Source of the DNA: an uncultured Bacteroidales bacterium
GTDB taxonomy: Bacteria > Bacteroidota > Bacteroidia > Bacteroidales > UBA932
Length of the DNA: 64,000 nucleotides
Direction of reading: 5' to 3'
NCBI GenBank assembly: GCA_944326265.1
Contig: CALVDE010000017.1
Span: 62,001-126,000, forward strand
Shown here: positions 13,594 to 20,073 of the stretch, piece by piece
Layout: the number at the start of each line of letters is the position of its first letter
Position numbering within the stretch: the first letter of the stretch is position 1
The notes under the pieces: model-generated
The model's input: only the letters and a program-made list of their open reading frames with translations
Databases searched by the model: none
Told to the model about the DNA's origin: nothing
Translations under genes and position numbers: made by a program

Positions 13594-17043
<3,450 letters not shown>

Positions 17044-17059
17044 CAGCATTTCCCTTAGT

Positions 17060-17074
17060 TCGGAGCCGTTGCGG
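17060..17074 (+). repeat. Half-site related to the REP palindrome
   Basis: TCGGAGCCGTTGCGG, with GCCGTTGCGG at 17065-17074, matches the right arm and adjoining bases of the palindrome at 17941-17980 (TCGGTGCCGTTGTGG). The left arm is missing. It sits 17 bp after the beta-galactosidase stop. Confidence 0.45.
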
Positions 17075-17137: not shown

Positions 17138-17893
17138 ATGAAATTCATCTCATGGAACGTGAATGGCCTGAGGGCCTGCTGCGGCAAGGGTTTCGAGGAC
17201 TCTTTCCGAGCATTGGACGCGGACTTTTTCTGCCTGCAGGAGACCAAGATGCAGGAGGGACAGCTGGACCTGGCCTTCGAGGGCTACCGCTCGTACTGGA
17301 ACTACGCTCAGAAGAAGGGCTACTCGGGAACTGCGATATTCTCGCGCCATGAACCGTTGTCGGTTACTTACGGACTCGGGCTGGAGGAGCACGATACCGA
17401 GGGCCGCGTAATCACTCTCGAGATGCCGGATTTCTATCTGGTGACGGTCTATACGCCCAACTCGCAGGATGAACTGCGGCGGCTGGACTACCGCATGACC
17501 TGGGAGGACGAGTTCCGCGCCTATCTGCTGCGCCTGGATGCCGTCAAGCCCGTCATTGTCTGCGGTGACCTGAATGTGGCCCACAAGGAGATCGACCTGA
17601 AGAACCCGAAGACCAACCGTATGAACGCCGGATTCACCGACCAGGAGCGCGGCAAGTTCTCCGACCTGCTCGCCGCCGGATTCACCGATACCTTCCGCCA
17701 TTTCTACCCCGACACCGAGGGTGCCTACTCCTGGTGGTCCTACCGTTTCAAGGCCCGCGAGAAGAACGCCGGGTGGCGCATCGACTATTTCCTCGTTTCC
17801 AACCGCCTGCAGCCCAAGCTCCTCGGTGCCGCCATCCACAACGAAATCTTCGGCTCCGACCACTGTCCCGTAGAACTTACCCTCGACATCTGA
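17138..17893 (+). CDS. xth: Exodeoxyribonuclease III (AP endonuclease)
   Basis: A 251-residue member of the endonuclease/exonuclease/phosphatase fold that cuts DNA at abasic sites in base excision repair. Diagnostic motifs are [10 protein letters not shown] at the N-terminus (metal-site Asn), [10 protein letters not shown] (catalytic Glu), [19 protein letters not shown] (Asp and Asn), and the C-terminal RIDYFLVS and GSDHCPVEL (catalytic Asp-His). The length is normal and all catalytic residues are present. It probably has its own promoter. It ends 47 bp before the first palindrome of the transposase-associated array. Confidence 0.96.
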
Positions 17894-17940
17894 CGAAACT
17901 CTCTCATCGGATATCTCGCTCTACTGGTATCTTTCTTTTT

Positions 17941-18085
17941 CCACAACGGCAGAGTTTTCCGCGATTCGGTGCCGTTGTGGCACCACCATTCATGCTGCAC
18001 CCTCTCTACAGGCTCTCTGGGCGGCATTGCTCTTCTACCTCCTTTCCACAACGGCAGCAAAACCTGCGATTCACTGCCGTTGTGG
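17941..18085 (+). repeat. Left REP-like array (two palindromes, 105-bp period)
   Basis: Two 40-bp palindromes at 17941-17980 and 18046-18085, each with perfect 10-bp arms CCACAACGGC and GCCGTTGTGG. They are separated by a 65-bp spacer, giving a period of exactly 105 bp. The spacer carries CTCTCTACAGGCTCTCTGGG, whose reverse complement recurs in the right-hand array. The 335-bp gap 17894-18228 holds this array, a short leftover resembling the end of a further spacer before 17941, and the region upstream of the transposase. Confidence 0.93.
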
Positions 18086-18228
18086 AAGGGACTTTGCCTG
18101 CCCAATTGCACTTTCGGTAAAATATTTTACCTGCCCGATAACATTTTCCGGGATAATCCGGAATAATACAGTATCTTTACGTCACGTCCCTGCAGTACTT
18201 AGTGTACAAATCCTTAAAACATAATAAA

Positions 18229-19185
18229 ATGAGAGCACCGTATCACTATTGCTACACCTCTCATGGAGAGGTGCTTTGCCGGGACGATGAAGATTTTTGC
18301 CGGCTTCTGTGCAGGATCGCGCAGATATCGGAGACCATGAACGCGGGTATTTTCGCGTACGCGTTGATGTCCACTCATGCGCATCAGATTATCGAAACTG
18401 ATAATCTGCCTGAGTTCTCGAGGCGGCTCAGGCATTCGTACACAAGTACTTTCAACAAGAAATATCATCGGAAAGGATCCTTGGGAGAGAAGAATTTCTT
18501 CAGTCTCGAACTTCGCGGCATAGAACATAAGGCCGCAGCAATCAGCTATGTTCTGAAAAATCCCGTGCATCATCAGGTATGCGTGAATCCTTTCAGTTAT
18601 CCGTACAGTACCGCGGGCCTGTACTTCGGCAGTGCGGTCGGAAAGGCCGGATGTGGATCCGGAACGGTTCTGACACAAAAAGAGCGGGTACATGAGACCC
18701 TGGCCAGGAAACTGCTCAGGCGCAGCAAGCCATTGACGGACCTGCTTCGGCTGGATGACCGGGGAAGTATCGACCCGGCGTCATTTGTGGAGTACAAGGC
18801 AGTTGAAACGATATTCGGCACATACAATGCCTTTCAATACAATCTTCATAGGCGCGACTATGAGGAATGGAAACAGCAGCAGAAGCAGGATGGTACAGAT
18901 GATGAGCCTGTTACGCTGGGGTCTATAGAGCCGTGGATGTCCCGGGAGGAGGTTGAGGCTTTCGAGCGGAAGAGCAAGCACTGGTATAGGGAGGAGGCTG
19001 TCTCGGATATGGAGCTGTGCCGGATAATTGACACGGATATCATAAATCGGTATGGGCGGAAAAGTTACTGGCATCTGACTGAGGATGAGAAGAAAGAGAC
19101 GGCGAAATGGCTTATGGAGAATTTCAATGCCACAGAGGCGCAGGTGTGCAGGTGTCTTGCCCTGCCGTATAAGAAAAAGGGATAA
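18229..19185 (+). CDS. REP-associated tyrosine transposase (RAYT, Y1/HUH family)
   Basis: A 318-residue protein from the ATG at 18229; a GTG at 18202 in frame would add nine residues. It has the Y1 transposase hallmarks: an HUH-like motif THAHQII (His50, His52) at the end of the third strand of the core fold, and the catalytic-tyrosine helix ISYVLKNPVHH (Tyr107), matching the Y-x-x-x-NPV pattern of TnpA_REP proteins. The C-terminal part (about 120-318) is charged and helical and ends in a probable DNA-binding region (LMENFNATEAQVCRCLALPY). RAYT enzymes nick and join single-stranded DNA at REP palindromes and are usually domesticated, single-copy genes. The flanking palindromes support this. 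Its first right-hand palindrome begins 9 bp after the stop. Confidence 0.88.
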   Translation: MRAPYHYCYTSHGEVLCRDDEDFCRLLCRIAQISETMNAGIFAYALMSTHAHQIIETDNLPEFSRRLRHSYTSTFNKKYHRKGSLGEKNFFSLELRGIEHKAAAISYVLKNPVHHQVCVNPFSYPYSTAGLYFGSAVGKAGCGSGTVLTQKERVHETLARKLLRRSKPLTDLLRLDDRGSIDPASFVEYKAVETIFGTYNAFQYNLHRRDYEEWKQQQKQDGTDDEPVTLGSIEPWMSREEVEAFERKSKHWYREEAVSDMELCRIIDTDIINRYGRKSYWHLTEDEKKETAKWLMENFNATEAQVCRCLALPYKKKG

Positions 19186-19194
19186 GGGGGCTTG

Positions 19195-19476
19195 CCGCAA
19201 CGGCAGGGAATTGCGGGTTTTGCTGCCGTTGTGGTAGGGGCACGGAAGAGGGATGCCGCTCAGAAGGGCTGTAGCAGGGGGGACGGGGAAAATGCTGTTC
19301 CGCAACGGCACCGAATCGCGGGTTTTGCTGCCGTTGTGGTGAGGGGATGGAAGGGCAGTGCCGCCCAGAGAGCCTGTAGAGAGGGTGAGGCAGAAAAGGT
19401 GGTGCCGCAACGGCAGAGAATTGTGGAATTTGCTGCCGTTGTGGTAGGAGCGGTGGAAAATATGCCCGCAGAAGGG
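19195..19476 (-). repeat. Right REP-like array (three palindromes, 105-bp period)
   Basis: Palindromes at 19195-19234, 19300-19339 and 19405-19444, each 40 bp with arms CCGCAACGGC and GCCGTTGTGG, spaced exactly 105 bp. They are inverted relative to the left array. The 65-bp spacers are homologous to one another and to the reverse complement of the left spacer (shared core GCCGCCCAGAGAGCCTGTAG in two of them). A diverged partial spacer (19445-19476) runs up to the lutC stop codon. The hairpins could also act as a transcription barrier between the convergent genes. Confidence 0.93.
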
Positions 19477-20073
19477 TTACAGGAGGATGACGGAGACGTC
19501 GCGGGGACCGTGGGCACCGATGACGAGGGCCTGCTCGATGTCGGCGGTCTTGGAGGGGCCGGCGATGAAGCTGCCGAAGTCGTAGGTGTCGAAGTCTTCC
19601 CGGGAGTAGGCCTCGTGCATGGTGCATACGATCTGGGTGCGGTCCAGGAGGATGACCAGGGCCTCTGGGATGAACAGCAGGGCCTTGTGGCGGAATGTCC
19701 GGGGGATCCAGACGGCGCCGTTCTCGGCGACTCCGAAGGCTCCGCGGACGATGGCGATGTCGGTGCCGGCCAGGCTGCGGGGGTCTTTCAGTTCGTCGGG
19801 GTTGAAGGTGGCGCAGGCAGCGGCTTCGGGCAGGCTGGAGGCTATCCGCTTGGCGTCGGGGTATGTCCGGCGGACAATCGCGGCGACCGCGTCGGAGGCA
19901 GCTCGGCCTTCCTCCAGCAGGAAGCAGCGGGCAGCGGCGGCCTTCACGACCCTTTCCCGGAACTCTGCCAGAGGGTCCTCGAATGTCATGGGGGTGAATC
20001 CCAGCGGCCCTCTTTCCAGGGGTGCGGGGCTATTGGCCCTGAGGGCCTCAAGTATTGTATCCTTGCTTGTCAT
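19477..20073 (-). CDS. lutC: Lactate utilization protein C (LUD domain)
   Basis: A 198-residue LutC/YkgG protein from MTSKDTILEAL; upstream in-frame Mets lie inside lutB in another frame and are rejected. It has the LUD-domain pattern IAIVRGAFGVAENGAVWI and the C-terminal GPSKTADIEQALVIGAHGPR, both highly characteristic. LutC works with LutA and LutB as the Fe-S lactate-oxidising complex that converts L-lactate to pyruvate. It starts 13 bp after lutB and is the last gene of the operon. Its stop codon abuts the diverged end of the REP-array spacer, so the extreme C-terminus may have been shaped by that repeat. Confidence 0.95.
   Translation of the reverse strand: MTSKDTILEALRANSPAPLERGPLGFTPMTFEDPLAEFRERVVKAAAARCFLLEEGRAASDAVAAIVRRTYPDAKRIASSLPEAAACATFNPDELKDPRSLAGTDIAIVRGAFGVAENGAVWIPRTFRHKALLFIPEALVILLDRTQIVCTMHEAYSREDFDTYDFGSFIAGPSKTADIEQALVIGAHGPRDVSVILL

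Follow-up and report, generated by a model that had tools for sequence, protein, structure and literature searches.

A REPtron-like RAYT gene and its phased palindromes in an uncultured Bacteroidales bacterium and its genus

Introduction

How REP-type repeats spread and how a RAYT chooses its repeat are open questions that have been studied almost only in Proteobacteria, where a genome can have several pairs, phased modules adjoin RAYT genes, and coevolution has been described (PMC2817692, PMC8266576). Both questions are raised by a locus in a 64,000-nt stretch of DNA (the window) from an uncultured, gut-type Bacteroidales bacterium, in which a Y1-type transposase gene is enclosed by two arrays of regularly spaced palindromes: do gene and palindromes form a pair, and how did the arrays acquire their fixed period? 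An earlier note on this DNA had judged a Bacteroidales RAYT with long, regularly phased units to be unusual. This was overstated, given that Bacteroidetes RAYTs with atypical flanking repeats are known as subclass 2.6 (PMC6006769), and that phased tandem modules adjoin RAYTs in the BIME-2 of E. coli and, as ordered clusters of REPINs, in P. fluorescens SBW25 (PMC2817692, PMC3116915).

Results and discussion

The five 40-bp palindromes reported earlier, here called A palindromes, are present at 17941..17980 and 18046..18085 in the left array and at 19195..19234, 19300..19339 and 19405..19444 in the right array. In the window sequence they have the form CCRCAACGGC-N20-GCCGTTGTGG, and the pattern CAACGGC-N-GCCGTTG is matched 5 times in the window against 0.02 times expected by chance, with five or more matches in none of 100 shuffles. 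They had been described as parts of an exact 105-bp unit; the spacing is indeed exact in both arrays, but the units are only 67-80% identical. The unit has a direction because its 20-nt loop, consensus AGCATTTCCCGCGATTCggT, is asymmetric. Loops of the left array, which has one 65-bp spacer (17981..18045), read on the plus strand, and those of the right array, with two spacers of the same length (19235..19299 and 19340..19404), on the minus strand; the mutual inversion of the arrays, also claimed earlier, extends over 158 nt with 81% complementarity. A leader, CTCATCGGATATCTCGCTCTACTGG..TTTTT (17902..17940, plus strand), lies left of the left array and recurs beside A units on contig C3. Between the arrays lies the gene that we call RAYT-A (18229..19185, plus strand), which encodes 318 aa from an ATG at 18229 to a stop codon ending at 19185.

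Taken as single-stranded DNA, each palindrome yields a stable predicted hairpin (z -3.1 to -7.2; -14.1 kcal/mol and z -6.0 for the first left unit), and a strong predicted hairpin starts 9 nt past the RAYT-A stop codon. The arms carry a mark at palindrome position 3 and its partner, position 38, where 41 independent sites show A-C 18 times, G-T 14, A-T 7 and G-C 2, a bias spotted post hoc (Fisher p=3e-4). A units thus tend to combine a CCA arm with a CCG arm, and perfect pairing at this position is avoided.

The left flank is an exonuclease III-type host gene (17138..17893, plus strand), an ORF named from its sequence. Upstream of it, at 17043..17074, is a degenerate half A-palindrome, an inverted match to the right-array units, at a place where relatives have 4-5 full A units; it is the remnant of an array once present beyond this gene, on the side away from the RAYT. 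In genome G004 the stretch 17895..19477 is entirely missing, with 17894 joined to 19478, and the exonuclease III stop codon abuts the next gene. This empty RAYT locus could also have arisen by deletion. The same junction has other occupants in the genus: in G013 (L121) and G016 (L123) a gene of 1.4 kb that looks like a serine beta-lactamase-type hydrolase, and in G001 (L122:960-1620) an array in which D, E and A units are mixed (D and E are defined below), with rearranged flanking genes.

The histidines H50 and H52 and the tyrosine Y107, claimed as catalytic residues of RAYT-A, are present and invariant in 19 homologues. A structure predicted from these homologues (pTM 0.80) best matches 4er8, the TnpA-REP (RAYT) protein bound to its REP hairpin (E 1.8e-5, TM 0.67 over the target), followed by the IS200/IS605 transposases IS608 and ISDra2. 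By its predicted fold the gene product is a RAYT, and together with the catalytic residues and the position between inverted arrays this bears out the earlier identification. An HUH/Y1 core of about residues 1-130, with an HUH-to-Tyr distance of 57 and the Tyr motif YVLKNP, is followed by a C-terminal region of about 180 aa that matched no known fold in the structure comparison. Profile searches stayed below their thresholds, both for Pfam Y1_Tnp (E 0.011) and for NCBIfam NF047646 REP_Tyr_transpos (39.3 bits, curated cut-off 80). A phage origin was rejected, the match being only 31% over 34% of the protein, and an IS200/IS605 insertion sequence does not fit a single RAYT-A with no near-identical copies and a next paralogue that is 42% identical. 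Three distant Y1-type genes with NHVH-type motifs, 22-27% identical, lie in G000 at C12:13604, C17:51808 and C17:144140, two of them with direct repeats in their flanks; in G006 (L055), short repeats of 9-bp period, TTGGACGTG, lie near a Y1-type gene.

The genome-wide pattern search that the earlier note had proposed found the palindrome dispersed and not local to the window, so that a local tandem duplication alone is rejected. The own genome has 13 A palindromes with perfect arms and 17 with up to three mismatches, on contigs C1, C3, C4, C13, C17 and C20, and the reversed control gave 0. Across 19 genomes of the genus, perfect A palindromes number 0 to 106, and up to 129 A copies are found in a species of the same genus (G011); loci L035, L036 and L037 appear to be genomes G015, G007 and G008 and were counted once. 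In the loci read (124 units), 58 of the 60 distances between neighbours are 105 bp, and the units of one array almost always have the same orientation. Solitary A palindromes have no spacer, an array consists of n palindromes and n-1 spacers, and dispersed copies at unrelated sites carry homologous spacers. An Rfam search gave no match. A further dispersed element, an inverted repeat about 105 bp long whose core is CCCTCTAGAGCCGAGGGCGGCTAG, lies right of the A array on contig C3 (L002:1701-1830) and has numerous matches in most of the genus's genomes.

Orthologous sites show that copy number at a given site changes in steps of exactly one 105-bp unit. At the mutS site, eight comparable genomes have 1-3 A copies and from half a copy to 3 copies of B, a second palindrome described below, and the site varies by whole units of 105 bp (A) and 118 bp (B). 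A copies number 1, 1, 2, 3 and 2 among orthologues of another site with the same flanks, and 1, 1, 2, 2 and 1 among those of the C20 site, and the C4 array has 6 units in the window's own genome and 3 in G015. Identical neighbouring units, such as three consecutive 105-bp units at the RAYT locus of G007, show recent tandem duplication. Spacers are of a subtype specific to each site and common to the orthologues there. At the C3 site the spacer between two palindromes is inverted in G008 relative to G000. The site also has the roughly 40-bp leader of the RAYT locus, so the C3 copy probably came from that locus. A clean before-and-after empty site was found for no single dispersed unit; only the RAYT locus (in G004) has one.

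These observations make it probable, in our assessment, that the enzyme and its repeats form a REPtron-like pair, in which a single-strand-acting HUH/tyrosine RAYT recognises the palindromes and seeds units that are then gained and lost in tandem as wholes. The RAYT would bind the folded hairpin on single-stranded DNA and would cut and rejoin there, cleavage and transposition being steps that we infer, and would seed new intergenic sites with palindrome and spacer units. Slippage, or unequal recombination between units, would account for most of the whole-unit steps, perhaps with help from nicking by the RAYT. The fixed unit length had been taken to point to an amplification mechanism; no special mechanism is needed, because tandem duplication and deletion of units preserve it. 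A larger role for the enzyme, to which we give roughly one chance in four, is that the arrays are its direct product: by cutting two neighbouring palindromes at an identical position, the RAYT would release a 105-nt single-stranded circle that inserts beside another palindrome, and the fixed unit would be the transposition product. Nunvar et al. proposed such a circular-module model for BIMEs, and both the near-invariant spacing (58/60) and the characteristic period of each clade agree with it; however, site-specific spacers common to orthologues are what local duplication predicts, and slippage fits identical neighbours equally well.

The pairing of RAYT and palindrome recurs within the genus, which comprises seven or more related RAYT clades; the majority have a phased palindrome of their own. 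Clade A has the arm CAACGGC and a period of 105 bp, clade B CACCTTCSGAAGGTG and 117-118 bp, and clade D ACTCCTTCSGAAGGAGT and 127 bp; the period is 106 bp in clade E and 94 or 106 bp in clade F. A helical explanation of the 105-bp period (10 turns) cannot be general, since the other clades have periods of 117-118, 127, 106, 94 and 71-72 bp. On either side of RAYT-B, the paralogue on contig C1 that is 42% identical to RAYT-A, lie arrays of CACCTTCSGAAGGTG doublets, inverted to each other and with a 117-118 bp period. Orthologues of RAYT-A and RAYT-B retain their flanking arrangement in four genomes each, with only A units at the four RAYT-A loci and only B units at the four RAYT-B loci. On the RAYT tree, nine unit types map with 8 changes, the fewest possible. 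Related RAYT clades in the genus go with different palindrome arms, and since sister RAYTs in relatives each have a different palindrome, they look like matched enzyme-repeat pairs. A spacer common to every unit type was rejected: only for A with E is the spacer alignment clearly better than in shuffles (0 of 500), and for A with B it is not. In the family, 62 of 250 genomes have a long RAYT, and 8 of 26 genera are represented among them; in several of these 8 genera the RAYTs are flanked by other palindromes, some at offsets of 71-72 or 114 bp. A fragment of G001 at C36 was rejected as RAYT-A, its contig having B units and no A units. Two identical 34-bp near-palindromes, GAACGGC..GCCGTTG, lie 117 bp apart in G000 (C5:83846-83879 and 83963-83996) and are possibly coding.

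Palindrome counts also vary with RAYT presence among the draft genomes of the genus, in comparisons that ignore phylogeny: A palindromes are more numerous where RAYT-A is found (p=0.031), and B palindromes where RAYT-B is (p=0.002). The first value becomes p=0.005 if G011 is counted as having RAYT-A, as it may be because its contig ends inside a RAYT-A-locus array. A counts also track RAYT-B (p=0.018), B counts also track RAYT-A (p=0.012), and the two counts are themselves correlated (rho 0.79), so that part of the association may reflect common ancestry or the size of the genomes. The expectation that genomes without the RAYT lack the palindromes holds for all four genomes without a long RAYT, which have zero A or B palindromes. 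It fails as a strict dependence on a RAYT-A orthologue, which is contradicted by G003, G001, G017 and G002, with 19-45 perfect A copies and RAYT-A undetected in draft assemblies whose gaps cloud this result. Contigs break off at arrays in G011, G007 and G017.

Such persistence of palindromes in genomes without a detected RAYT-A, like the strong hairpin 9 nt after the RAYT stop codon, would suit a host role in transcription termination, mRNA ends or nucleoid binding that keeps the palindromes, with the RAYT as passenger or domesticated gene. We think this improbable, as RAYT and palindrome match clade by clade and four genomes of the genus have no A palindromes at all. Ordinary slippage repeats spread by homologous recombination, with a Y1 gene between them by chance, would explain recombination signatures such as whole-unit changes and the inverted C3 spacer, but are very improbable in view of the homologous spacers that dispersed copies have even where their sites are unrelated, the arrangement kept by RAYT-A and RAYT-B orthologues in four genomes each, and the repeated RAYT-palindrome pairing, which already disfavours them.

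Within the REPtron-like reading, one locus bears on how an enzyme is matched to its arm. RAYT-D of G007 occupies the same locus as the RAYT-B of four genomes. Over 1.3 kb from array to RAYT and the first ~105 codons, the D and B loci are 0.84-0.96 identical in most comparison windows, the lowest (0.74) falling where B loci drop too, and over the array-to-RAYT gene and these codons D-to-B likeness equals B-to-B likeness. For the remainder of the RAYT and for both arrays, identity drops to about 0.4-0.7, against values mostly near or above 0.8-0.9 for the same stretches among B loci. At this one locus, then, species that differ in the C-terminal two thirds of the RAYT differ in both arrays as well, and because of this joint variation the C-terminal part would seem to help set arm specificity in the proposed mechanism. 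It may be that the D protein and its arrays are no more than old alleles with a recombination in the middle. A more tentative idea, to which we give less than even odds, is that the RAYTs are modular, with a shared catalytic N-terminal part and an exchangeable arm-reading C-terminal part; a swap by recombination would accompany conversion of the arrays to a new palindrome, and the genus would thus diversify independent pairs. One genus offers many matched clades, whole-unit differences at orthologous sites and one joint difference of protein and arrays, which makes specificity and copy-number change directly testable.

Comparison with known systems

The closest likeness is to the RAYT/REP systems of Gammaproteobacteria (REPtrons, TnpA-REP; Nunvar 2010, PMC2817692; Corneloup 2021, PMC8266576), with which RAYT-A shares an HUH/Y1 enzyme of the same predicted fold, flanking inverted palindromes with dispersed cognates, several pairs per genome and apparent coevolution. 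In contrast to REPtrons, the palindromes here lack a GT[AG]G foot (it stands at 11 of 247 ends, where about 6 would be expected), the arms enclose a directional loop of 16-20 nt, and RAYT-A has some 180 extra C-terminal residues and a REP_Tyr_transpos score (39) below the cut-off of 80. REPtron palindromes usually number more than 100 per genome, and A palindromes 17 here and 129 in G011. The foot is not universal among RAYTs, since by description it is absent in subclass 2.6 and class 3.

The REPIN clusters of SBW25 (PMC3116915) and E. coli BIME-2 likewise consist of paired palindromes in phased modules set in tandem, and these too occur next to RAYT genes. The units here differ in mostly pointing one way within an array and in having many periods in one genus (94, 105, 106, 118 and 127 bp), each tied to a RAYT clade; measured against a BIME, they show its regular spacing but not its alternating orientation, units being almost always oriented the same way. 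Subclass 2.6, or RAYT group 5 (Quentin 2018, PMC6006769), likewise comprises Bacteroidetes RAYTs with atypical flanks that lack GT[AG]G and have genomic copies elsewhere, but RAYT-A departs from it in HUH-Tyr distance (57 against about 82), Tyr motif (YVLKNP against YIH[QN]NP) and length (318 against 179 aa). PINSR, a 188-bp repeat of Prevotella intermedia (PMC4755523), is by description similarly a high-copy intergenic repeat of Bacteroidota, but differs in that its authors report no terminal inverted repeats. We conclude that the system probably works like a REPtron and place it in no published subclass; what is new is its form, namely the lack of a GT[AG]G foot, the directional loop, the long C-terminal region, the strict clade-specific periods and the many pairs in one Bacteroidales genus.
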